Assembly (NCBI GenBank): GCA_016183815.1
Contig: JACPDW010000036.1
Span: 37,584 to 101,583, forward strand
Source: Flavobacteriia bacterium
GTDB taxonomy: Bacteria; Bacteroidota; Bacteroidia; Flavobacteriales_D; Crocinitomicaceae
Reading direction: 5' to 3'
DNA length: 64,000 bases
The position numbers were made by a program, and so were the translations under genes. The notes below the pieces were generated by a model. It had not been told where the DNA came from. It saw only the letters and a list, made by a program, of their open reading frames with translations, and searched no databases. Shown here piece by piece: positions 34,421 through 57,512 of the stretch (positions within the stretch are counted from its first letter, which is position 1; each line of letters begins with the position of its first letter).

Positions 34421-34490
34421 TTTTAACTTTTAACTTTTAACTTTTAACTTTTAACTTTTAACTTTTAACTTTTAACTTTTAACTTTTAAT
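34421..34490. repeat. Tandem TTTTAAC heptamer array
   Basis: Nine perfect copies of TTTTAAC (34421-34483) plus one imperfect copy (TTTTAAT). Read on the minus strand the unit is GTTAAAA. The array fills nearly the whole space between sulP and the carbonic anhydrase gene, and the sulP stop codon (34479-34481) lies inside it. It ends 10 bp before the carbonic anhydrase ATG, where the ribosome binds, so a change in copy number could alter the spacing there. Confidence 0.95.
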
Positions 34491-36020
34491 TTTAGGCACA
34501 TTAATCGTTTTAACTTCTATATTTTTAACTTTTGCTTTATATTCAATAAACTCTTGTATGAGTTCTAAAACATCAAAATCTATTTCATGACATTTGCTTC
34601 CATCGATATAAAGTTTAGAATTATTTTTTATGTTATTTAATTCTTCTTTGATACTTCCTTTGTTAAGATAAGTTACTTCTTCTGATAATTGAATACATAT
34701 TTCGTTTTCATCTGTTTTTAATACGTAATTGTTTTTATAATTTCTTCTCAAAATAAAATAGATGGAAACTACCATTCCTACACCAATACCAATTAAAAGG
34801 TCACTAAACAACACTGCTATAATTGTAGAAAGAAAGGGAACAAATTGATCCCAACCCAAGCCATACATTTTCCTTAATAAATCAATTTTTGCGAGCTTAT
34901 AACCTACCATAATTAATATAGCGGCTAAAGATGCAAGGGGGATTTTATTTAAAAAACTTGGTATAAAAGCAACTGTACTTAAAAGTAAAATCCCATGAAA
35001 AATTGCGGATAATTTATTTTTACCACCTGCATTTACATTGGCTGAACTTCTAACGATTACTTGAGTTATTGGCAAACCACCAATTAATCCAGAGATAATG
35101 TTTCCAATTCCTTGAGCTTTTAATTCTCTATTGGTAGGTGTGGTTCTCTTTTCTGTATCCAATTTGTCGGTAGCTTCAACACTTAATAAAGTCTCTAAAC
35201 TGGCCACTAAAGCAAGTGTTAAACCAACTACATAAACATTTGGATTACTTAAAACAGAAAAATTGGGTAAAGTGAAAAATCCAATAAAATCTTGCATATT
35301 TTCAGCTTTGGGAAGGTTGACAAGATGCTTACTATCAAGTACCCAATCGATCATAAAATAAGGATAAAGACTATTGACAATAATTCCTGTAAGGACAACA
35401 AAAAGTGCAGAAGGTAGGAATTGAAATAAAGCAATTTTTTTAAAAGATTTAGTTTCAAACAAGATTAAAATAAGCAAAGAAAGTGAAAAAATCAAAATTG
35501 CACCTGGACTTGTTTTACTGAGGGCATTTACAATTTCAGAAAAAGTATTTTGACCATCCATTTGAAAAAATGCTTCATCACCTATAAAGTCTGCGTCATA
35601 TCCAAAAGCATGAGGTATTTCTTTCAAAATCAAGGTGATACCAATAGCAGCTAACATTCCTTTAATTACTGAAGAGGGAAAATAATTTCCTATTACTCCA
35701 GCTCCTAAAATGCCACTGATTAATTGAATGACTCCCGAGATAACTACTGCGGTCAAAAAATATTCAAATCCACCTAAAGTGCCGATGGCTGCTGCAACAA
35801 TAGTTATTAAACCAGCTGCTGGACCAGAGACACCAATTCTTGAACCACTAAAAATAGACACAATAATACCTCCAACAACACCTGCAATTATACCAGAAAA
35901 CAATCGAGGTTCAAGGGCTGTGGAAGCCAAACCAATTCCTAAACAAAGGGGAAGTGCAACTAAAAAGACGACTAGACCAGCTGGTAAATCTTGTTTCCAA
36001 GAGCTAAATAAATTTATCAT
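34479..36020 (-). CDS. SulP-family anion (bicarbonate) transporter
   Basis: Inner-membrane transporter with about twelve membrane segments. The N-terminal SulP signature is DLPAGLVVFLVALPLCLGIGLAS, and a conserved substrate-site region reads SGPAAGLITIV. A C-terminal STAS domain covers about residues 430-513. Coupling to the carbonic anhydrase gene directly downstream points to bicarbonate rather than sulphate as the substrate. Its final codons run into the heptamer array. Confidence 0.88.
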   Translation of the reverse strand: MINLFSSWKQDLPAGLVVFLVALPLCLGIGLASTALEPRLFSGIIAGVVGGIIVSIFSGSRIGVSGPAAGLITIVAAAIGTLGGFEYFLTAVVISGVIQLISGILGAGVIGNYFPSSVIKGMLAAIGITLILKEIPHAFGYDADFIGDEAFFQMDGQNTFSEIVNALSKTSPGAILIFSLSLLILILFETKSFKKIALFQFLPSALFVVLTGIIVNSLYPYFMIDWVLDSKHLVNLPKAENMQDFIGFFTLPNFSVLSNPNVYVVGLTLALVASLETLLSVEATDKLDTEKRTTPTNRELKAQGIGNIISGLIGGLPITQVIVRSSANVNAGGKNKLSAIFHGILLLSTVAFIPSFLNKIPLASLAAILIMVGYKLAKIDLLRKMYGLGWDQFVPFLSTIIAVLFSDLLIGIGVGMVVSIYFILRRNYKNNYVLKTDENEICIQLSEEVTYLNKGSIKEELNNIKNNSKLYIDGSKCHEIDFDVLELIQEFIEYKAKVKNIEVKTINVPKIKS

Positions 36021-37759: not shown

Positions 37760-37845
37760 AAACGACGGAAATCAATTAAATACCGACACAAAAACGACGG
37801 AATTAAATTATTTTTCGATACTCAAATGACGCTATTCAATTAAAT
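37760..37845. repeat. Three 32-bp-pitch repeats before ATPase 1
   Basis: ACGACGGAA at 37762, ACGACGGAA at 37794 and the variant ATGACGCTA at 37826 are spaced exactly 32 bp. Each is followed by an AATTAAAT-like tract. First and third copies match at 16 of 20 positions, as do first and second. The last copy ends 4 bp before the promoter -7 box of the ATPase gene. Confidence 0.7.
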
Positions 37846-37849
37846 TTCT

Positions 37850-37857
37850 TATCTTTG
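37850..37857 (+). promoter_or_regulatory. Promoter -7 box of ATPase 1
   Basis: TATCTTTG is an exact Bacteroidota TAnnTTTG match, 23 bp before the ATG at 37881 and immediately after the third 32-bp repeat, which therefore occupies the -33 region. Confidence 0.55.
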
Positions 37858-37880: not shown

Positions 37881-39023
37881 ATGAAATTCATAGAAAGATC
37901 CCTTGAGAAAATAATAAAAAAGTATTTAAAACCAAATAAAGTTGTGATACTTTTAGGTGCAAGGCGTGTTGGTAAAACAGAACTTATAAAACACATTCTT
38001 AAAGATGTAAAAGAAAAAACGATGCTTCTTAATGGTGAAGATCAAGATGTTCATTTAATTTTAGAAAATCGTAGTATTAGAAATTATAAACAAATTTTAG
38101 GTGATAATAAACTTTTAGTAATAGATGAAGCTCAGGCAATACCTGAAATTGGATTGAAATTAAAATTAATGGTGGACTCAATCGATGGACTTAAAATAAT
38201 AGTAACAGGATCTTCTGTCTTTGATTTAAATAATCAATTAGGTGAACCTCTTGTTGGTCGCTCCTATTTTGTTAACATGTATCCTTTAGCACAAATTGAA
38301 TTTGCAAAAAGAGAAAACTATATTGACACAAAAGGATTACTACCTACTAGACTAATTTACGGTGCATATCCAGAATTAGAGCAACTAAAAAGTAATGAAG
38401 AAAAAGAACGTTACTTAAAAGAACAAGTTAATTCATACTTGTTGAAAGATATTTTAACTTTTGAAGGAATAAAAAAGCAAAATAAGATTGTTTCATTATT
38501 GAGATTAATCGCTTTTCGTGTCGGAAGTGAAATTTCGATTGAAAGTATTGGCAAAGATTTAGATTTAAACAAGAGCACAGTAAGTAGGTATTTAGATTTA
38601 TTATCCAAGGTTTTTATTATTTACAATTTAAGTGGATTTAGCAGAAATCTGGATAATGAAATTACGAAAAAAAGTAAATGGTATTTTTTTGATAATGGCA
38701 TTCGCAATGCATTAATAAATAATTTTAATCCAATCGAACTTCGTGACGACCAAGGCAAATTATGGGAGAATTACCTCGTCTCAGAACGATTAAAATTTCA
38801 GGAATATACGAGACTTCATACAGCTAATTTCTTTTGGAGAACGCATACACAACAAGAAATTGATTGGGTGGAAGATAGGGGAGGTGTTTTGTATGCTTAT
38901 GAATTTAAATGGGGAATTAATAAAAAGTCTAAAATTCCGCCTTTATGGGGGAAATCATACCCAGATTCAGTATTTCAGACAATCAATATTGAAAATTATC
39001 TTGATTTTATTACAAAAAAATGA
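37881..39023 (+). CDS. AAA_14/DUF4143 ATPase with PD-(D/E)xK-like C-terminus (ATPase 1)
   Basis: AAA+ protein of 380 residues. Walker A is GARRVGKT (26-33), Walker B LLVIDEAQ (78-85) and the sensor segment VTGSS (108-112), followed by the family-typical GRSYFVNMYPLAQIEF. A winged-helix-like stretch is near 210-245 (IESIGKDLDLNKSTVSRYLDLL). The C-terminal DUF4143 region ends in a nuclease-like motif, Asp328 then Glu341-x-Lys343 (EIDWV...YEFKW). Members are often stray, mobile-looking genes of unknown function. It is preceded by 32-bp-pitch repeats and stands alone between an MFS gene and the nadR-like gene. Confidence 0.85.
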   Translation: MKFIERSLEKIIKKYLKPNKVVILLGARRVGKTELIKHILKDVKEKTMLLNGEDQDVHLILENRSIRNYKQILGDNKLLVIDEAQAIPEIGLKLKLMVDSIDGLKIIVTGSSVFDLNNQLGEPLVGRSYFVNMYPLAQIEFAKRENYIDTKGLLPTRLIYGAYPELEQLKSNEEKERYLKEQVNSYLLKDILTFEGIKKQNKIVSLLRLIAFRVGSEISIESIGKDLDLNKSTVSRYLDLLSKVFIIYNLSGFSRNLDNEITKKSKWYFFDNGIRNALINNFNPIELRDDQGKLWENYLVSERLKFQEYTRLHTANFFWRTHTQQEIDWVEDRGGVLYAYEFKWGINKKSKIPPLWGKSYPDSVFQTINIENYLDFITKK

Positions 39024-48175: not shown

Positions 48176-50077
48176 ATGGGAAAAATAATAGGAATCGACT
48201 TAGGAACAACCAACTCTTGTGTTTCTGTGATGGAAGGGAACGAGCCAGTGGTGATTGCTAATTCAGAAGGTAAAAGAACAACACCATCAATCGTAGCATT
48301 TGTTGAGGGTGGAGAAAGAAAGGTAGGTGATCCAGCAAAAAGACAAGCGATAACCAACCCAACTAAAACAATTTATTCTATCAAACGTTTCATGGGTACA
48401 TCCTATGATGAAATTAAGAAAGAAGCTGAAAGAGTAGCTTATGAGGTCGTTAAAGGAGAAAATAATACCCCAAAAGTTAAAATTGACGACAGAAATTACA
48501 CACCTCAAGAAATTTCAGCTATGATTCTTCAAAAAATGAAAAAAACTGCTGAGGATTACCTTGGTCATGAAGTATCAGAAGCCGTTGTAACTGTTCCTGC
48601 ATACTTTAATGACGCTCAACGTCAAGCAACAAAAGAAGCTGGCGAGATTGCAGGTTTGACTATTAAAAGAATTATCAATGAACCAACAGCCGCTGCTTTA
48701 GCGTATGGTTTAGATAAAAAAGGAATTGACCAAAAGATTGTAGTATTTGACTTTGGTGGAGGAACTCACGATGTATCTGTATTAGAACTTGGTGATGGAG
48801 TTTTTGAAGTATTATCAACTGATGGTGACACTCACTTAGGCGGAGATGATGTCGATCAAAAAATTATTGATTGGTTGGCAGATGAGTTTAAAAATGATGA
48901 AGGCATTGATTTAAGAAAAGATCCAATGGCACTTCAAAGATTAAAAGAAGCTGCAGAAAAAGCAAAAATCGAATTGTCCTCTACTCAAAGTTCCGAAATA
49001 AATCTTCCGTACATCATGCCTGTAAATGGCATTCCAAAACATTTGGTAAGAACTTTACAAAGATCAAAATTTGAACAATTAATTTCTGATATAGTTGAAA
49101 GAACCATCGCTCCTTGTCGTTCAGCTCTTAAAAATGCGGGTCTTTCTACTTCTGATATCAATGAAGTAATTTTAGTAGGGGGCTCTACAAGAATTCCAGT
49201 AATTCAAGATGCGGTAGAGAAATTTTTTGGTAAAGCCCCTTCAAAAGGTGTTAATCCAGACGAGGTAGTTGCTGTAGGGGCTGCTATTCAAGGTGGTGTA
49301 TTGACAGGTGAGGTAAAAGATGTGTTGTTATTAGATGTTATTCCTCTTTCTTTAGGTATTGAAACAATGGGTGGTGTATTTACTAAATTGATTGAAGCCA
49401 ATACAACTATTCCAACAAAAAAATCAGAAGTCTTTTCAACAGCATCGGATAATCAACCAAGCGTAGATATTCACGTGTTGCAAGGAGAAAGACCAATGGC
49501 AAATGACAACAAAACTTTAGGTCGTTTTCAATTAACCGATATTCCTCCAGCGCCTAGAGGTACACCTCAAATTGAAGTTACATTTGATATTGATGCCAAC
49601 GGAATTATGAATATTTCTGCAAAAGACAAAGGCACAGGGAAAAGTCAATCCATAAAAATTGAAGCATCCTCTGGATTAAGTGATGAGGAAATCAAAAGAA
49701 TGAAAGCAGAGGCAGAAGCAAATGCTGAAGTGGACAAAAAGAAAATGCAAGAAGTTGAAAAAATCAACAAAGCAGATTCTTTGATTTTCCAAACTGAACG
49801 TCAATTAAAAGAATACGGAGATAAAATTCCTGCAGATAAAAAACAACCTATCGAAGAGGCACTTGCTGAATTGAAAAGAGTTTTTGATGCAAAAGATACC
49901 GAAAACTTAGATCCAGCTATGGAAAAGCTTAATAACGTGTTTCAAGCAGCTTCCCAAGAAATGTACAATGCGTCTAACAGCCAGCCACAAGGTGAAGCAA
50001 ATCCAAACGATTCAAGTTCTACTTCATCTGACGAAGTAACTGATGTGGACTTTGAAGAAGTGAACGATAAAAAATAA
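48176..50077 (+). CDS. dnaK: Chaperone DnaK (Hsp70)
   Basis: ATP-dependent folding chaperone, 633 aa. The nucleotide-binding domain starts [15 protein letters not shown], the phosphate-2 motif is [14 protein letters not shown] (His replaces the commoner Phe or Tyr), and the substrate-binding domain and EEVNDKK-type acidic tail are complete. It is alone: no grpE or dnaJ is next to it. An AT-rich 230-bp region precedes it with no CIRCE element that I can see. A terminator follows directly. Confidence 0.98.
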
Positions 50078-50100
50078 AAGTTAAAATTTAATATTAAACT

Positions 50101-50136
50101 AAAATCGTCTGTTAAAAAACAGACGATTTTTTTTTG
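50101..50136 (+). terminator. Terminator of dnaK
   Basis: Inverted repeat AAAATCGTCTGTT (50101-50113) and AACAGACGATTTT (50118-50130) around a 4-base loop, followed by more T residues: a rho-independent terminator 23 bp after the dnaK stop. Confidence 0.9.
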
Positions 50137-50156
50137 TTTTCAAACCCCTATCCTAT

Positions 50157-50304
50157 TAATAATATCGATTATACTTTCAATTCGGCTATCACCCTTTTGA
50201 AATATTTCCAAGTAATATCAGCATTTTTTAATCCCGATTTTATCGAGGAAAATTGTATAATTAAAAATAACTTTGGGTTATTTTATAATTACAATTGGTA
50301 TAAA
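50157..50304. repeat. Dispersed hairpin repeat, copy A
   Basis: One of three related non-coding elements. It begins TAATAATATCGATTATAC, has an internal inverted pair (TTTCAA / TTGAAA), then AAGTAATATCAGCAT, and ends with ATTACAATTGGTATAAA. It begins 20 bp after the dnaK terminator. The 475-bp gap 50078-50553 is filled by that terminator, this element and the 32-bp-pitch array. Confidence 0.6.
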
Positions 50305-50320
50305 GTGTAAAAAATCTAAG

Positions 50321-50505
50321 AAAGTCATTCCTAAAATGTGCAATAATAAAAAAAAGTGGTACATAAAATGTGAAGTATATTAAAAAAGTCGTTTCGAAAA
50401 CGTGCAATAAATTAAAAAAGACATTACGAAAATGTGCAATAATATTAAAAAGTTGTTCCTAAAACATGCAAAATTATAAAAAAGTCGTTCATAAAATGTG
50501 AAATA
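50321..50505. repeat. 32-bp-pitch repeat array upstream of ATPase 2 (6 copies)
   Basis: Core starts (AAAG) at 50321, 50353, 50385, 50417, 50449 and 50481: the pitch is exactly 32 bp. The consensus core is about AGTCGTTCCTAAAATGTGC followed by AAT and an AT-rich spacer of about 8 bp. The core has short inverted arms that change in step: CATT/AATG in copies 1 and 4, CGTT/AACG in copy 3, TGTT/AACA in copy 5. The array ends 14 bp before a -7 box of the ATPase gene. Confidence 0.9.
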
Positions 50506-50519
50506 TTAAAATTTATTAT

Positions 50520-50527
50520 TATTTTTG
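50520..50527 (+). promoter_or_regulatory. Promoter -7 box of ATPase 2
   Basis: TATTTTTG fits TAnnTTTG, 26 bp before the ATG at 50554 and directly after the sixth repeat copy, so the array covers the -33 region and upstream. Confidence 0.45.
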
Positions 50528-50553
50528 TATTTGATTTATAAGTATTTAAACCA

Positions 50554-51882
50554 ATGCAATTTAAAAGAACACAAATTGAAGCATTATTGAAATGGAAAAA
50601 AAGTAAAACTAGAAAACCATTAATACTCCAAGGTGCACGACAAGTCGGAAAAACATCATTAGTGAAAACCTTTGGAAAATTGTATTTTAAAGACATTGCT
50701 TATTTCAATTTTGAAGAGGAAATTCTTTTAAAAGAATTGTTTGAAAGCACAAAAAAAGTGGATATTTTAATCAAAGAATTGTCTGTAATTCATGGTAAAA
50801 AAATAGAAGAAGATACAACATTGATTTTTTTTGATGAAATTCAGGAGTGTAATAGTGCGTTAAATTCATTAAAATATTTTCACGAAAGTAAAAAGAAATA
50901 TGCTATAATTGGAGCGGGGTCATTGTTAGGAATTTCTTTAGGAAAACAAATTTCTTTTCCTGTTGGTCAGGTTGAGTTCCTAGATATTTATCCTTTGTCT
51001 TTTTTTGAAATATTAGACTCAACAAACAATAAACTATATAAGTATGCTAAAAAAATAAATACGATAGAGCCATTGACGGAATTGATGCATTCAAATTTTT
51101 TAAATGAATTTAAAAATTATTTTATTTCGGGTGGAATGCCAGAAGTGGCAAAAAAATTTACCCAAACATTAAGTATTAATGAAGCAGATAAAATTTTAAA
51201 ATCCATTTTAAAGTCATATAACCACGATTTTACTAAACATACAAATAAAATTGATGCTATTAAAATTGGATATATTTGGAATTCTATTCCTTCACAATTG
51301 GCAAAAGAAAACAAAAAGTTTATTTTCCAAACTTTAAAAAGTGGTGCAAGAGCAAGGGATTACGAATATTCATTAGAATGGTTAATTAAATCTGGCTTGT
51401 GTTATAAGGTAAATCTATGTAAAAAACCATTTTTACCACTTAAAATTTATGATGATTTGAGTGCTTTTAAAATGTATGTTCACGATATTGGTGTTTTAAG
51501 GGTTTTGAGTGGTTTAGAAGCCAACTTATATTTACAAAAACATGATTTTTTTACTGAATTTAAAGGCGATTTAATTGAAAATTTTGTTTTACAAAGTTTA
51601 AAGATTCAGTTTAGTAATGATTTACGCTATTGGACTTCTGAAGGGAAAGCAGAAATTGATTTTATTTTGCAATATCAACAAGAGATAATTCCTATTGAAG
51701 TGAAATCAGGAAAAAATACCCAATCTAAAAGCATGATCGTTTACAATAAAAAGTATCGACCTAAATTAAGAATTTGTTATTCAACAAAAAATTTAAGTTT
51801 TGAAAGTGGCTTATTAAATATCCCTTTATATTTAATAGATCGTAGCAAAGATTTTATTGATTTGATTTTATACCAATTGTAA
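50554..51882 (+). CDS. AAA_14/DUF4143 ATPase with PD-(D/E)xK-like C-terminus (ATPase 2)
   Basis: AAA+ protein of 442 residues. Walker A is GARQVGKT (27-34), Walker B LIFFDEIQ (90-97), sensor GAGSLLGI, then FPVGQVEFLDIYPLSFFE, typical of the family. The DUF4143 region ends with a clear nuclease-like motif, Asp369 and Glu382-x-Lys384 (AEIDFIL...PIEVKSGK). It is a distant homologue of ATPase 1, not a recent copy. It is flanked on both sides by 32-bp-pitch repeat arrays, and its last codons lie in a 17-bp sequence that is the inverse of the end of repeat copy A. Function unknown. Confidence 0.88.
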   Translation: MQFKRTQIEALLKWKKSKTRKPLILQGARQVGKTSLVKTFGKLYFKDIAYFNFEEEILLKELFESTKKVDILIKELSVIHGKKIEEDTTLIFFDEIQECNSALNSLKYFHESKKKYAIIGAGSLLGISLGKQISFPVGQVEFLDIYPLSFFEILDSTNNKLYKYAKKINTIEPLTELMHSNFLNEFKNYFISGGMPEVAKKFTQTLSINEADKILKSILKSYNHDFTKHTNKIDAIKIGYIWNSIPSQLAKENKKFIFQTLKSGARARDYEYSLEWLIKSGLCYKVNLCKKPFLPLKIYDDLSAFKMYVHDIGVLRVLSGLEANLYLQKHDFFTEFKGDLIENFVLQSLKIQFSNDLRYWTSEGKAEIDFILQYQQEIIPIEVKSGKNTQSKSMIVYNKKYRPKLRICYSTKNLSFESGLLNIPLYLIDRSKDFIDLILYQL

Positions 51883-51883
51883 T
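51867..51883. repeat. Inverted copy of the repeat-A end, overlapping the ATPase 2 stop
   Basis: TTTATACCAATTGTAAT is the exact reverse complement of ATTACAATTGGTATAAA at 50288-50304. It contains the stop codon (51880-51882). The pair brackets the upstream array and the ATPase gene. Confidence 0.8.
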
Positions 51884-51887
51884 AATA

Positions 51888-52040
51888 AAAGTCGTTCCGA
51901 AAACGTGCAAAAAACATAAAAAGACATTCGGAAAATGTGCAATTATATTAAAAAGTCGTTCCGAAAACGTGCAATTATTACAGAAAGTCGTTCTGAAAAT
52001 GTGCAAAATTTACAAAAAGTGGTTCTGAAAATGTGCAAAA
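51888..52040. repeat. 32-bp-pitch repeat array downstream of ATPase 2 (5 copies)
   Basis: Core starts (AAAG) at 51888, 51920, 51952, 51984 and 52016, again exactly 32 bp apart and in the same orientation as the upstream array. The best core is AGTCGTTCCGAAAACGTGC. Inverted arms are CGTT/AACG in copies 1 and 3 and CATT/AATG in copy 2; copies 4 and 5 have weaker arms. The sequence degenerates after 52041. It occupies the gap between the ATPase stop and the end of the YwqK-like gene on the other strand. Confidence 0.9.
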
Positions 52041-52060
52041 ATTATTAAATGTCTTTTATT

Positions 52061-52441
52061 TTAGTGACTTCCGACGACTTGATCGTTTTTATACAAAAGT
52101 GTTCTCGCTACTTTTCCATTTTGATCAAAATAAACTTGTTCTCCATTCAGGAGGTTGTTTTGGTAATTACTTTTCATTTTTATTTGACCAAGTGAATCGT
52201 AAATTGTCCAAACTCCTTCTCGTTTTCCTTTATGGTAATTCCCAACAATATTTTTTGCGCCATTTGGGTGGTACCACACCCATTGACCTTCATTCAAATT
52301 TTCAACAACTTCTCCTGTTCTTATAGGTTTTCCATTATTGTATTTCAAATCGTTTTTTTCTCGAGTAAAAAAATGAAACATTACCCAAGCCAAAACAATA
52401 CCTACAGCCAAAGCTTTATGAATACTATTGTAGTTATACAT
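52061..52441 (-). CDS. YwqK/MORN-variant repeat protein
   Basis: Small protein with one N-terminal membrane helix (about 9-24) and about four short MORN-variant repeats: GQWVWYHPNGAKNIVGNYHKGKREG, GVWTIYDSLGQIKMKSNY and GEQVYFDQNGKVARTLLY fit the pattern GxWxxYxxxGxxxxxxxY. Such repeats occur in proteins labelled as YwqK-type antitoxins and in many Bacteroidota surface proteins, but no toxin lies beside it. It is 2 bp after the moaCB gene on the same strand, so cotranscription is likely without a clear functional link. Confidence 0.65.
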   Translation of the reverse strand: MYNYNSIHKALAVGIVLAWVMFHFFTREKNDLKYNNGKPIRTGEVVENLNEGQWVWYHPNGAKNIVGNYHKGKREGVWTIYDSLGQIKMKSNYQNNLLNGEQVYFDQNGKVARTLLYKNDQVVGSH

Positions 52442-52443
52442 AA

Positions 52444-53361
52444 CTAATCTTCATGTTTTGTTCCTCTAAAAACTTTAAATACATGGAAAATAGCAGGAAA
52501 AACAGCATCAATTGATTCCGAAGCTCCTTTTGTTGAACCTGGAACGGCTAAAATTAATGATTTATCTTTTACGCCCGCAACACTTCTAGACAACATAGAT
52601 AATGGTGTTCTTTCTTGACCATATTGACGCATACTTTCTTCTATCCCTGGAATTCTTCTATCTAACATTGGAATTATAGCTTCTGGTGTGATGTCTCTGA
52701 TAGACAAACCTGTTCCTCCTGTAAAAATAATCAAATTTGTTTTAATTCCACAATGTTTTGTTACCAACTCTTGAATATCTTTTTTCTCATCAGGTATCAC
52801 CACATATTCAACAACTTCTACACCAAAGGAGATTAATTTTTCCTGAATACTTTTCCCAGCAAAATCTTCTTTTTGTCCAGCACTGATGGTGTCACTACAA
52901 ACCACAACGGCGGCTTTTAAGCCTAACTCTACGTATTTATTTTTCCAATCAGATTTGCCTCCTTTTTTGCTAATTAATTTAATGTTTTTAATTTCAATTC
53001 CTTTGTCAATAGGCTTAAGCATATCGTACATTGTCAATGCAATAACACTTGCTCCATGCATCGCTTCGACTTCAACTCCTGTTCTATAAATGCTTTTTAC
53101 TTCAATCTGTATGATGATTTCTAAATCTTGAATGTCATAAGTAACAGCAGTATATTCGATAGGTAATGGGTGACAATCAGGGATTACATCGGAAGTCTTT
53201 TTAACAGCAAATAGTCCCGCTGTTTTAGCCATTTCAAAAACATCACCTTTAGGTACTTTTTTATCAATAACTGCTTGGATGGTTTCCAATTTAGATACTT
53301 GTACACGGGCTTCTGCAATAGCTTGCCTTAATGAACTACTTTTATGTGTAATTTCTACCAT
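52444..53361 (-). CDS. moaCB: Bifunctional MoaC/MoaB molybdenum cofactor protein
   Basis: Fusion of two activities. The N-terminal part (about 1-150) is MoaC, cyclic pyranopterin monophosphate synthase, with DVIPDCHPLPI and VEVEAMHGASVIALTMYDM. The C-terminal part (about 155-305) is MoaB/Mog-like, which adenylylates molybdopterin, with IIFTGGTGLSIRDITPEAI and LPG-like LAVPGSTKGA. The MoaCB fusion is common in Bacteroidota. It lies in a run of Moco genes in one direction: moeA..modE-mobA-moaD-moeB-moaE-moaCB. Confidence 0.95.
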   Translation of the reverse strand: MVEITHKSSSLRQAIAEARVQVSKLETIQAVIDKKVPKGDVFEMAKTAGLFAVKKTSDVIPDCHPLPIEYTAVTYDIQDLEIIIQIEVKSIYRTGVEVEAMHGASVIALTMYDMLKPIDKGIEIKNIKLISKKGGKSDWKNKYVELGLKAAVVVCSDTISAGQKEDFAGKSIQEKLISFGVEVVEYVVIPDEKKDIQELVTKHCGIKTNLIIFTGGTGLSIRDITPEAIIPMLDRRIPGIEESMRQYGQERTPLSMLSRSVAGVKDKSLILAVPGSTKGASESIDAVFPAIFHVFKVFRGTKHED

Positions 53362-53364
53362 TTT

Positions 53365-53820
53365 TTAATCAAATTTATTTTCTTTCCAAACATATTCTTG
53401 ATTTTCAAAGATTTCTTTGCCAAAAACAGGGGCTTTTAATTTTATTTCTTCCACTACATATTCAATAGCTTGTAATGCTGATTTTCTATGTTTTGATGAT
53501 ACAAAAACAAACAAACAAATTTCACCTTTTTTGACAACTCCAATACTATGGTAAATGTGCATACAAGTCAATTCAAATTTAGAATATGCTTCTTCTCTAA
53601 TCTCATGAAATACTTTATTCGCCATTTCTTCATAAGCCGAATATTCTATTGCTTGAACTTTTTTTCCATCAATTTCGTCTTCTCTTACCTGACCTAAAAA
53701 AATTTGATGGGCTCCGATTCCTATTTTGCTTTGATGTTTAGCAATAGAATCAGCAATAAAATCAGGTATTATAGCTCCAGGTTTAAAACAATTTTTGTAT
53801 TTTATAGTATTATTTTCCAT
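53365..53820 (-). CDS. moaE: Molybdopterin synthase catalytic subunit MoaE
   Basis: Large subunit of molybdopterin synthase, which inserts dithiolene sulphur into cPMP using thiocarboxylated MoaD. Features visible are GAHQIFLGQVR, IEYSAYEEMA, HIYHSIGVVKKGEICLFVFVSSKHR and the Lys-rich KAPVFGKEIFE with WKEN near the end. The length of 151 aa is normal. It is one base away from moeB and 3 bp from moaCB, as in a tight operon. Confidence 0.95.
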   Translation of the reverse strand: MENNTIKYKNCFKPGAIIPDFIADSIAKHQSKIGIGAHQIFLGQVREDEIDGKKVQAIEYSAYEEMANKVFHEIREEAYSKFELTCMHIYHSIGVVKKGEICLFVFVSSKHRKSALQAIEYVVEEIKLKAPVFGKEIFENQEYVWKENKFD

Positions 53821-54897
53821 TTATATTAATTTTTCAACTACATTATTAAAGTGTATTATTCGATTGATTTCCATATGATTTTGTAAAATTACAGCAGCTT
53901 TTTTACTTCTAATTCCTGATTTACAGACACATACAATTACTTTATCTTTAGGTAGTTCATTTATTCTTTCTTCTAAATTGAATAGTGGAATTTCAAGCAC
54001 ATTTCTTTTGTTTAATTTAGGGAATTCTTCCTCATTTCTAACATCCAAAAGTATAAAATTTTCTTCATTCAACGACTCAATAGTATCAATTGATTTCCCA
54101 CTAAAATTTTCTGATTCACAAGAATAATCTTCTAATTGAACTCCGTTTTTTTGAAGAATATATTGATAATCAATATTTTTTCTATTGACTTTTATTTGGA
54201 CAGTTTTTTGATTCAAGGCATCGTAAAAAAGTATTTTTCCATTCAACAACTCTCCTATTTCTGTTATCAACTTGATACATTCCATAGCTTGAAATGTGCC
54301 TATTATTCCAGGTAATACACCTAATACGCCTGCTTCTGCACAATTTAATAAGTTGGCATTTTCAGGTGTTGAAGGAAAAACACAACGATAAGTGGGGCCA
54401 ATTTGATAATTAAACACACTCACTTGTCCATTAAACTGATCTATTGCACCATAAATCATTGGTTTGTCGCACAAAACACAAAAATCATTAATAAGATATC
54501 GGGTGGAAAAATTATCGGTACAATCTATTACAACATCATGTGAATTAAACAATTTCGAGGCATTGTCAATAGTTAAAAATTCTTCTACTACATCAACAAT
54601 AATATAAGGATTTGAACTTTTTAATTTATTTTGAGCTACTCGAACTTTCTTTTTTCCAATATCTTCAATACTATACAAAGTTTGTCGATGTAAATTATGA
54701 ACATTCACCACATCACCATCAACAATTGTAAGTTGACCTACACCAGCTGCAGCTAAATATTGTAAACAAGGACAAGCCAATCCGCCCGCACCTATCACTA
54801 AAACTTTGGATGATTTAAGCTTATTTTGTGCTTCTTCACCGAAATTATTTAGCTGTAAATGTCTTGAATAATATGCTTTTTCTTGCTCGTTTAACAT
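53821..54897 (-). CDS. moeB: MoeB-type adenylyltransferase with rhodanese domain
   Basis: Activates the MoaD C-terminus by adenylylation; the rhodanese domain may deliver sulphur. The ATP motif is VIGAGGLACPCLQYLAAAGVG, with the Arg/Asp set in NLHRQTLY and DCTDNFSTRY. Residues about 265-358 are rhodanese, with the catalytic Cys loop CKSGIRS. The usual structural zinc cysteines of MoeB are mostly missing: TYRCVFP has one Cys in place of CYRC, and the C-terminal CxxC is replaced by NIDYQY. A ThiF is less likely given moaD directly upstream. Confidence 0.9.
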   Translation of the reverse strand: MLNEQEKAYYSRHLQLNNFGEEAQNKLKSSKVLVIGAGGLACPCLQYLAAAGVGQLTIVDGDVVNVHNLHRQTLYSIEDIGKKKVRVAQNKLKSSNPYIIVDVVEEFLTIDNASKLFNSHDVVIDCTDNFSTRYLINDFCVLCDKPMIYGAIDQFNGQVSVFNYQIGPTYRCVFPSTPENANLLNCAEAGVLGVLPGIIGTFQAMECIKLITEIGELLNGKILFYDALNQKTVQIKVNRKNIDYQYILQKNGVQLEDYSCESENFSGKSIDTIESLNEENFILLDVRNEEEFPKLNKRNVLEIPLFNLEERINELPKDKVIVCVCKSGIRSKKAAVILQNHMEINRIIHFNNVVEKLI

Positions 54898-54915
54898 TGT
54901 TTTTTAGATTTATAT

Positions 54916-55155
54916 TTAACCACCAGCAAACGGAGGCATTAAAACCAATTCTTTAATTTCTTTGTCTGGAAAAACTTCAACAATTTCTAAGTCAACGGCA
55001 ACACAAAAAGGCAAAGCGTTTAATTGAGGGTATTTTTTTTTGAAATAATTTTTAACGTCTTCTCCAATAGACCAGTCTATCTGAATAATATCACTAGCTT
55101 TTCCTATCTTGTCGGCAAGTCCAGCAAAAAATTTTATGTCACACGTTTTTTCCAT
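54916..55155 (-). CDS. moaD: Molybdopterin synthase sulphur-carrier subunit MoaD
   Basis: Ubiquitin-like sulphur carrier of 79 residues. The C-terminus ends in the required double glycine (MPPFAGG), which is adenylylated by MoeB and then thiocarboxylated. The N-terminal IKFFAGLADKIG is typical. It sits between mobA (1-bp gap) and moeB (18-bp gap). Confidence 0.93.
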   Translation of the reverse strand: MEKTCDIKFFAGLADKIGKASDIIQIDWSIGEDVKNYFKKKYPQLNALPFCVAVDLEIVEVFPDKEIKELVLMPPFAGG

Positions 55156-55156
55156 T

Positions 55157-55753
55157 TTAATTTTGAATTGTTTCGTTTGTAATTTTTAAAAAATCAGCAG
55201 TTGTATTGATGTTAAATAATACTTTTTCAGGATTAAAAGAGGGTGACCATTTTTCATTTTCAATATGAATAACATTTGATTCAGTTACTTTCAATAAATC
55301 TTGAACTTTAAAGTTGTTGTTCTCAATTTGATTTTGGATATTGTCAACGATTTCTTTTTTAGCCACTGCAATTAATGGAAAAAAACCACCTTGAAAACAA
55401 ACTGTGGTGAATTGAAAAGGGTTATGGTATTCAAGTAATTTTGATAATAATTCAATGTTTACAAAAGGCGAATCGCAGGGTACAATAATATTTGTCTGAT
55501 TACTTGAAACTTTTAATGAACTATAAATCCCTCCAATTGGACCTAAATCAGAAATAATATCAGGACAAATTCTCCAATTTTTTTGTATTGAGATTTGAGT
55601 ATTGGAATTGACAATAATTTCGGAAGCACCCATTTTTTCAAATACCTCAGCAATATGATATACTAAGGTCTTATTATCAAGCAACAATTCGGCTTTATTT
55701 TTCCCCATTCGAGAACTTTTTCCTCCTGCTAATATGATTCCAGTAAAAGCCAT
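55157..55753 (-). CDS. mobA: Molybdenum cofactor guanylyltransferase MobA
   Basis: NTP-transferase that attaches GMP to the molybdenum cofactor, needed for DMSO-reductase-family enzymes. The nucleotide motif is IILAGGKSSRMGKNKAELLL, with the metal Asp in IIVPCDSPFVN. The length of 198 aa is normal. Its presence suggests that this organism makes bis-MGD enzymes such as nitrate or DMSO-type reductases; none is encoded in the window. It shares one base with the modE-like start. Confidence 0.93.
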   Translation of the reverse strand: MAFTGIILAGGKSSRMGKNKAELLLDNKTLVYHIAEVFEKMGASEIIVNSNTQISIQKNWRICPDIISDLGPIGGIYSSLKVSSNQTNIIVPCDSPFVNIELLSKLLEYHNPFQFTTVCFQGGFFPLIAVAKKEIVDNIQNQIENNNFKVQDLLKVTESNVIHIENEKWSPSFNPEKVLFNINTTADFLKITNETIQN

Positions 55754-56106
55754 TATGCGATTATATCTAGTTTTTGTAATTCGTTTTTTAAAAATTCTTG
55801 ATTAGAATCGATGATTGAATCATAGATGTTGATTAAACTTCTCCCTGTTTCACTCAAGCAAGAGCCACCACCATTTGTTCCACCAACAGAACCGATAACC
55901 AATGGAATTTTAAATTTTGAATTCATTGAAGAAACTAAACTCCATGCCTTTTTATACGACATTCCCATCTCTTTTGCTGCTTTTGAAATGGAACCATAAT
56001 GTTGAATATTTTTTAACAAAGTAATTCTTCCTTTTCCTAGAAAAGATTCATTGTTTGAGTTAATCCACACCCTACATTCAATTTGAAAAGCTTGTTGCTC
56101 ATCCAT
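55753..56106 (-). CDS. ModE-like winged-helix regulator (N-terminal domain only)
   Basis: LysR/ModE-type winged helix of 117 residues. The recognition region is QHYGSISKAAKEMGMSYKKAWSLVSSMN, followed by the Gly-rich VGGTNGGGSCLSETGR wing segment that is characteristic of ModE N-terminal domains. The C-terminal molybdate-binding Mop domains are absent, as in other short ModE-like proteins. It probably regulates molybdate or cofactor genes. It is the first gene of the run modE-mobA-moaD-moeB-moaE-moaCB. Confidence 0.85.
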   Translation of the reverse strand: MDEQQAFQIECRVWINSNNESFLGKGRITLLKNIQHYGSISKAAKEMGMSYKKAWSLVSSMNSKFKIPLVIGSVGGTNGGGSCLSETGRSLINIYDSIIDSNQEFLKNELQKLDIIA

Positions 56107-56122
56107 CGTTATTTATTTCAAG

Positions 56123-56258
56123 TAATAATACCGATTACACATTCAATATAGTTCAAATTCGGCGTTAACCTTTAGAACTATTTTCATGTAATATCGGCAT
56201 AAACCATTGTAAAATTGTAAAATATTTTTGGAAGATTTTTCAATTACAATTGGTATTA
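56123..56258. repeat. Dispersed hairpin repeat, copy B
   Basis: It starts TAATAATACCGATTACAC, contains the inverted pair ATAGTTC / GAACTAT, then GTAATATCGGCAT, and ends CAATTACAATTGGTATTAC. Start and end are related as inverted repeats (TAATACCgATT and AATTGGTATTA). It fills the 194-bp gap between the modE-like gene and moeA, so it separates moeA from the rest of the Moco run. Confidence 0.75.
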
Positions 56259-56300
56259 CGCAAAATAACGGCTTAAAATTTGTCTAAAATATGATTTAAA

Positions 56301-57476
56301 TCAGATTCGTATAATTTCCACTTCCTCTCCATCAAAAAATTGTGCTTTTCCTTCGGGTAAAATGATTAAACAATCAGCTTCTACAAAAGAGGATAACATG
56401 GCAGAACTTTGATGTTCAAGGATTTCCACTTGGGAATTAGCTAGTAATTTTCCTTTTAAAAAACAAGTCAGTTTTTCGGATTTTTTATAATCAGAATTTA
56501 ATTTAACTTTATTTTTTTCTAAAAAAGGAATGTTTCTTCCTAAAAAAACTGCAATGGCTTCTAAAACGTACAAATAAAAGCAAGTTAACACAGCTGCTGG
56601 ATTACCAGGTAAAGCAAAAATTAGATGATTACCTTTTTGCCCAAAAAAAATAGGTTTTCCAGGTTTTTGTTTGATTTTATAAAAACTTTCTTTTACTTCT
56701 AATCTTTGTAAAATATCATACACAAAATCATAATCTCCAACGGAAATTCCTCCTGTAATCAGTAAAATATCACTTGATTCGATGGCATCATTGACACATA
56801 ATATCATTTTTTCAGGAATATCTTCCACCATTATATTTTCAGCTGAAAAGTGAAAATTATTTAAAACAGCTTTTAATGTATGTGAATTGGATTCAAATAT
56901 TTTGCCTTTTTGTAAAGTGGAATGAATGTCAACCAATTCATTTCCAGTTGTTATTATTTTAATTTTTGGTTTGTCATAAACAGAAACTTGTTCAATACCC
57001 AACATACATAAAAACCCAATTGTTCCTGCATTGATTAACGAATCTTTTTTAAGAATTAATTGATCTTTTTTACATTGTTCACCGATTAATCTAATATTTT
57101 CACCAGCGATAATTTCTTTTTCAATAAAAATTTCTTCTTCATTTTTATTTACATCTTCTTGTTTAATAACAGCATAAGTATTTTCAGGAATCATGGCACC
57201 TGTGAAAACACGATAACATTCACCATCATTTAAAAACACATTTTCTGCATTATCGCCAGCTTTAAAAACACCCTTAAGGTGAAAAGAATTGCCAGTAGGT
57301 TTACCAATTGCGTATCCATCCATTGCAGATTGTTCGAATGGTGGAAATGAAATAGGTGAATACAATTCTTCAGCAGATACTAAATGTAAACTTTCATCAA
57401 CCGATACAATTTTTACCCTTTTTTTAACTTGAGAATTTCTAATATTTGTAAGGGCTTCTGTCCAAGATAACATCAT
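56301..57476 (-). CDS. moeA: Molybdopterin molybdenumtransferase MoeA
   Basis: Inserts molybdate into adenylylated molybdopterin. Features seen are PPFEQSAMDGYAI, FTGAMIPENTYAVIKQED, IITTGNELVD, LITGGISVGDYD and FALPGNPAAVLTCFY. The frame could start seven codons earlier (57497), but a TATCTTTG -7 box lies in those codons (57490-57483), so the ATG at 57476 is preferred. It is transcribed towards copy B and the modE run, and divergently from the FNR-type gene, with an ATGATaaaaATCAT palindrome between them. Confidence 0.93.
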   Translation of the reverse strand: MMLSWTEALTNIRNSQVKKRVKIVSVDESLHLVSAEELYSPISFPPFEQSAMDGYAIGKPTGNSFHLKGVFKAGDNAENVFLNDGECYRVFTGAMIPENTYAVIKQEDVNKNEEEIFIEKEIIAGENIRLIGEQCKKDQLILKKDSLINAGTIGFLCMLGIEQVSVYDKPKIKIITTGNELVDIHSTLQKGKIFESNSHTLKAVLNNFHFSAENIMVEDIPEKMILCVNDAIESSDILLITGGISVGDYDFVYDILQRLEVKESFYKIKQKPGKPIFFGQKGNHLIFALPGNPAAVLTCFYLYVLEAIAVFLGRNIPFLEKNKVKLNSDYKKSEKLTCFLKGKLLANSQVEILEHQSSAMLSSFVEADCLIILPEGKAQFFDGEEVEIIRI

Positions 57477-57482
57477 AAAATA

Positions 57483-57490
57483 CAAAGATA
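57483..57490 (-). promoter_or_regulatory. Promoter -7 box of moeA
   Basis: TATCTTTG on the minus strand, a full match to TAnnTTTG. If used, transcription begins near 57477, and the palindrome at 57513-57526 is centred about 43 bp upstream of that point. Confidence 0.45.
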
Positions 57491-57512
57491 TAGACAAAAA
57501 TTGAAAAGTTAT

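Follow-up and report, generated by a model that had tools for sequence, protein, structure and literature searches.

Tandem self-binding sites are known from plasmid iterons, which are bound by Rep, and from the archaeal ORB repeats of Orc1/Cdc6 genes, and in ToxIN the repeat RNA ToxI restrains ToxN. We analysed a stretch of 64,000 nucleotides from a Flavobacteriia bacterium (the window), in which the gene of an AAA_14-DUF4143 ATPase is enclosed by two arrays of 32-bp repeats. The locus resembles iterons and ORB repeats in that the gene of a predicted DNA-binding protein lies beside tandem sites spaced at about whole helical turns, and the AAA+ and winged-helix folds of Orc1/Cdc6 are comparable to those of the window protein. 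By contrast, the three-turn pitch, the promoter-side array and a C-terminal nuclease-like domain set the window system apart from both. With ToxIN it shares a short tandem array directly before a nuclease-like gene, but the arrays of DUF4143 genes more often precede the -7 box and those of the window do not fold as RNA. The window protein also differs from STAND/NLR-like NTPases and from the archaeal ATPases 2qen and 2fna by having a PD-(D/E)xK-like end of its own, while its 442 residues leave no room for a repeat sensor domain.

The window protein belongs to the same family as PDC-S01, a PADLOC candidate with AAA_14 and DUF4143 to which the array would add a cis-part. In PMC12988326, PDC-S01 is reported to rank fourth by frequency among the defences of all prokaryotes and is presented as a candidate phage defence, most PDCs awaiting experimental validation; the passages of that paper on repeats, promoters, operators, upstream regions and arrays contain no mention of arrays of this kind. 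PMC4406477 tabulates how expression changes with plasmid DNA, and an AAA_14/DUF4143 gene is entered there with a value of 6.6. No description of the arrays was found in the open-access literature searched (preprints excepted), which included passages of PMC12988326, PMC13356809 and PMC4406477.

The window gene, its protein and its arrays

The locus comprises the following features.

50268..50275, + strand: TAACTTTG, another -7-like box, preceding the upstream array
50289..50320 (from about 50289), + strand: a degenerate stretch, by eye possibly a seventh unit, before the first upstream unit
50321..50512, + strand: upstream array of six 32-bp units, each a 23-bp core resembling AAAGTCGTTCCGAAAACGTGCAA plus a linker of about 9 bp
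50520..50527, + strand: TATTTTTG, Bacteroidota -7 box (TAnnTTTG), directly after the upstream array
50554..51882, + strand: gene of the AAA_14-DUF4143 ATPase, 442 aa, PADLOC PDC-S01
50554..51165, + strand: AAA+ module, residues 1-204, with Walker A GARQVGKT and Walker B DEIQ
51166..51519, + strand: predicted winged-helix module, residues 205-322, from the structure model
51319..51378, + strand: residues 256-275, extending as far as the presumed recognition helix begins; best predictor of repeat similarity
51544..51879, + strand: PD-(D/E)xK-like module, residues 331-442, with E367, D369, E382 and K384 conserved
51888..52047, + strand: downstream array of five 32-bp units, of the same family and orientation as the upstream array

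The PADLOC profile of PDC-S01 matches residues 1-432 of the window protein (E 5.8e-159) and is matched by all 64 of 64 aligned family members, and Pfam AAA_14 and DUF4143 are scored at 91.5 and 117.5 bits with cut-offs of 27 and 28.1, respectively. The predicted structure consists of AAA+, winged-helix and PD-(D/E)xK modules, so that the AAA+ domain and PD-(D/E)xK-like end ascribed to the enclosed protein by an earlier, sequence-only reading of this DNA are both present in the model. The AAA+ part resembles ORC/Cdc6, and AAA+ plus winged helix resembles archaeal ATPases. With the motif assigned by eye, E382 and K384 are invariant among the 64 aligned rows and E367 and D369 are kept in at least 90% of them; the window protein carries these residues, and a nuclease role is predicted for it. 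A PDB sequence search with the window protein returned a single chance-level match (E 0.34), an NCBIfam search with it returned no family, and Foldseek on the winged-helix piece alone returned nothing at E 0.001 or better.

The sequence-only reading had placed eleven copies of one core in a single orientation at exact 32-bp steps, six from 50321 and five from 51888, and every copy was found as described. The lag-32 self-match scores were 55.2 upstream and 67.9 downstream of the gene, while the highest scores at any lag of 14-63 bp among 300 dinucleotide shuffles were 14.3 and 13.3, respectively, and the exact 32-bp pitch of both arrays is firm. Mean identity between copies was 77% in the upstream and 89% in the downstream array for the 23-bp core, and 64% and 50% for the 9-bp linker. 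A CRISPR array was ruled out, the linkers being AT-rich and about 9 bp long, whereas CRISPR spacers span at least about 20 bp, and an Rfam search of positions 49000-53000 gave 0 matches. Elsewhere in the window, positions 34421-34494 hold a near-perfect 7-bp tandem repeat, TTTTAAC, in 10.7 copies.

The repeats had also been called palindromic, with inverted arms that change together. The covariation of the arms was recovered in part, the 4-bp arms pairing in full in 7 of the 11 window copies (shuffle p = 0.008), but the symmetry is weak over the unit as a whole: the dyad of the upstream consensus unit is not significant (p = 1.0), and a dyad at p < 0.05 was seen in 12 of 63 non-redundant units, the window unit being among the 63 (mean z 0.63). 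Symmetry is thus weak, and strong palindromy was rejected. In six relatives with no tandem array (L093, L096, L113, L150, L154 and L167), TGTG/CACA inverted repeats were seen by eye between the -7 box and the start codon.

Upstream arrays among homologues

Homologues were collected in two sets, one from the window's own genome and its relatives, to which 20 further stretches were added and which includes near-identical orthologues, and one from named records, in which the best 80 loci were listed and 79 scored. The titles of the named records give Bacteroidota, Clostridia, Proteobacteria, Spirochaetia, Verrucomicrobia and others, labels that are uncertain because many of the records are MAGs. 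The array test took the best self-match lag of 14-63 bp in the 300 bp upstream, and a score of at least 10.5 was called strong.

The best upstream lag was 32 or 33 bp at 52/79 named-record loci and at 41/50 loci of the own genome and relatives, compared with 8/79 and 6/51 downstream flanks and with 44/917 and 17/253 control windows of the homologous loci, while strong arrays were found in 43/79 and 40/50 upstream flanks, 2/79 and 2/51 downstream flanks, and 11/917 and 2/253 control windows (the first count of each pair coming from the best 80 listed). The downstream rate at 32 or 33 bp is low, yet about twice the control rate in the best-80 and relatives' sets. When both sets were pooled (the named-record part being the best 80 listed), the best upstream lag was 32 bp in 46 loci and 33 bp in 47. 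Upstream flanks of other ORFs had this lag in 15 of 204 cases; 5 arrays were strong, and among these was that of a DUF4143 gene in tandem at locus L098. Two or three copies were present in 74 of 89 arrays. These results show that genes of this family branch frequently have, on the promoter side, an array whose pitch is 32 or 33 bp. The proposal that periodic repeats accompany homologues of the gene was thereby borne out for upstream flanks, whereas that of arrays on both sides describes the window (six units upstream, five downstream) but fails as a rule, given two strong downstream arrays in either set, 79 (from the best 80 listed) and 51 flanks having been scored.

The upstream flank lacked 32 or 33 bp as its best lag at 27/79 named-record loci (from the best 80 listed), several of which, by eye, have their sites in the 5'UTR. 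In a phylum-wide sample of PF13635, for which 27 loci were fetched, 6 of the 25 scored members had a lag of 32 or 33 bp, and the array as a universal DUF4143 trait was rejected; the members of this sample with Walker A GPRQSGKT had it in 0 of 7 cases. Homologues also occur on plasmids (59 records), and 19 loci of PDC-S01 relatives (L231-L249) lie on contigs classed as viral in IMG/VR. An array was found in 10 of 15 distinct scored viral-contig loci, one near-identical pair being among them.

A replicate of the array architecture exists inside the window itself, where a second DUF4143 gene has its own three-copy array and -7 box.

37760..37847, + strand: second 32-bp array, three units, AAACGACGGAA..., unlike the first array in sequence
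37850..37857, + strand: TATCTTTG, -7 box, immediately downstream of the second array
37881..39023, + strand: second DUF4143 gene of the window, 380 aa

In the own genome as a whole, 6 of 14 DUF4143-like genes have 32 or 33 bp as the best lag when lags of 14-80 bp are considered. Two others, L178 (G000 C43:44467) and L174 (C13:152072), have promoter-side repeats with pitches of 23 and 37 bp, respectively, and pitch may therefore vary by branch.

The Bacteroidota -7 box has the consensus TAnnTTTG. Among 54 arrays from Bacteroidota, one of them labelled Chlorobiota, this box stands between the array and the ATG in 28. It occurs in the 60 bp preceding the array in 3, and a control zone of 60 bp contains it in none. 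This core-promoter siting is found at both the window gene and the second gene. Among 38 other, mostly clostridial loci, a half-site AAAnyGT starts exactly 9 bp ahead of a TAWNNT hexamer in 8 (a raw count; L121, L128, L137, L143, L146, L153, L161 and L172), and with this spacing the last copy falls, by eye, between -35 and -10. A scan for -10 boxes at 25 mostly clostridial arrays discriminated poorly: 17 loci had a box downstream of the array, 9 had one ahead of it and 7 had one in the control. Several close relatives with no clear array have half-sites in the 5'UTR, between -7 box and ATG, as judged by eye. From their position, the arrays would suit a repressor.

The downstream array of the window is unusual. 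Strong downstream arrays were found at 4 of 130 loci (L001, L074, L098 and L099; the named-record part being the best 80 listed), and among these only the window locus, L001, repeats its upstream unit downstream, as seen by eye. The gene that follows the array (52061-52441) is on the opposite strand, and beyond it, at 52444-57497, lies a gene run that from its translations resembles molybdenum-cofactor synthesis. At L098:1550-1950, a 32-bp array and a -7 box lie between tandem DUF4143-like genes, the second recognised by eye. Because this tandem pair, in a relative, has an array before its second gene, the downstream array of the window may, by analogy, be a promoter left by a lost tandem copy. 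A tblastn search for a leftover second gene after the array gave no meaningful match (best E 5.4 with the window protein and 0.049 over 21 residues with others); a TAnnTTTG box was absent after the array up to 52500. Long neglect is also hard to square with the downstream copies, which are better preserved than those upstream, and a second regulatory role for this array is possible.

Repeat sequence in relation to the protein

When the core pattern was sought in the 3.24-Mb own genome with up to 3 mismatches, all 10 matches lay at this locus, so that the scattered copies without a DUF4143 gene that would have spoken against a tie to the gene were absent from this genome. In other genomes the window core gave 31 matches in 28 of 148, one with 2 mismatches and the others with 3, while a reversed-pattern control was as common (32 matches, 28 genomes); since matches in relatives are no commoner than those of the control, what is conserved is the architecture rather than the letters. 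When another repeat was sought in four genomes, 11 of its 12 matches fell inside the array of its own gene.

Across 88 arrays, array similarity correlated with protein identity (Spearman 0.57; best of 500 permutations 0.11). Array similarity was 26-64 for orthologue pairs and 3.9-10.0 for 18 within-genome paralogue pairs, with a background of about 6, and the five paralogues examined in genome G066 have dissimilar arrays. On a tree of 63 proteins, pitch (taken as 32 or 33 bp for every array) switches 8 times, compared with at least 15 times in 200 shuffles, so that pitch follows the protein tree. Taken together, these results show that the repeat sequence follows the protein rather than the genome and that, where it was searched for, it is the gene's own.

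Once total identity was controlled for, residues 256-275 predicted array similarity best among 85 windows (partial r 0.253, reached by 0 of 200 nulls; null 95% 0.138) and ranked top in 100 of 150 subsets, although such window and domain correlations are confounded by shared descent. The winged-helix domain as a whole was rejected as the best predictor, with a partial r of 0.004 (0.152 for the nuclease domain). Windows near Walker B also score, and in the winged helix the short stretch 256-275 alone stands out.

Predicted self-regulation and its alternatives

We consider it fairly likely that the window protein uses its winged helix to bind its own upstream array, repressing the gene that encodes it. 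The encoded protein would then be the regulator of its own promoter array, and several molecules could bind cooperatively along one DNA face, since the copies stand about three helical turns apart. Such cooperative binding would give a sharp off-state and keep transcription low for a nuclease that may be costly at high level, while release, perhaps upon phage infection, would derepress the gene; infection is a natural guess given the PDC-S01 label. Activation rather than repression by the array-bound protein is possible. The earlier proposal of sites on one DNA face beside the DUF4143 gene, probably bound by its protein and with autoregulation as one option, thus gains support from sequence comparison. 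More tentatively, and somewhat below an even chance, a large branch of this family, one of the most abundant among candidate defences, may form a two-part system, in which an AAA+/winged-helix/nuclease protein is joined to a private tandem promoter address with three-turn pitch and co-diverging sequence. With the array as silencer and tether, an NLR-like nuclease would stay parked and counted for as long as no invader disturbs it, and each copy would regulate only itself, even with many paralogues in one cell.

The promoter-side siting of the arrays would fit any transcription factor, and a regulator that is unrelated and encoded elsewhere could use them as operators, with no binding there by the DUF4143 protein. 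However, such a regulator would have to serve dissimilar arrays at the five paralogues of G066 and arrays that follow the protein, the window core was found at no other gene of the own genome, and among the best 80 loci listed no neighbour gene family is shared by more than 3. We therefore regard this explanation as unlikely.

An array transcribed into a repeated RNA that restrains the nuclease, by analogy with type III toxin-antitoxin systems, would fit the tandem repeat of similar size directly ahead of a nuclease-like gene. The -7-like box before the window array counts against that array being untranscribed, dyads occur in the 5'UTR of some kin, and across 63 arrays folding is on average better than that of shuffles (mean z -1.35; 18/63 with z < -2). 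By contrast, both window arrays fold worse than their shuffles (z +1.9 and +1.4), on which ground an RNA hairpin in them was rejected, and in Bacteroidota the array lies ahead of the -7 box in 28/54 cases and behind it in 3/54. An RNA-based restraint thus has little probability.

That the window gene sits between two arrays, that its AAA+ part is ORC/Cdc6-like and, with the winged helix, archaeal ATPase-like, and that plasmids (59 records) and viral contigs (19 loci) carry homologues would also fit recombination or mobility ends, or a partition- or origin-like platform, of a gene cassette. We hold this to be improbable, given that strong downstream arrays are restricted to 2/79 (from the best 80 listed) and 2/51 loci, that both window arrays have the same orientation and that no empty site was found in the 1.5 kb after dnaK of four congeners, all of which differ there from the window. 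The MORN neighbour was uninformative as a synteny anchor. ParABS-like partition was rejected, with AAA_14/DUF4143 present in place of a ParA/ParB pair and no recurring partner gene. As to RAYT/REP-like or transposon ends, the repeats stand on both sides in the window in the same orientation, and no other genomic copy was found. Finally, although up to six copies in an array and a downstream array without a TAnnTTTG box after it could suit a protein whose main role at the array is non-regulatory, such as a nuclease stored tethered to DNA with promoter siting incidental, the position of arrays relative to -7 boxes makes this very unlikely.

Predicted self-regulation would join a known family, PDC-S01, to a known kind of element, tandem self-binding sites, and it is the arrays of this family that are new to the literature searched. 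A cis-array present in homologues from many labelled phyla provides a testable handle on the family: each array-bearing gene comes with a predicted DNA target, a predicted regulator and a way to separate family branches. The family would also offer a natural set of co-diverging pairs of winged helix and site from which recognition rules may be derived.
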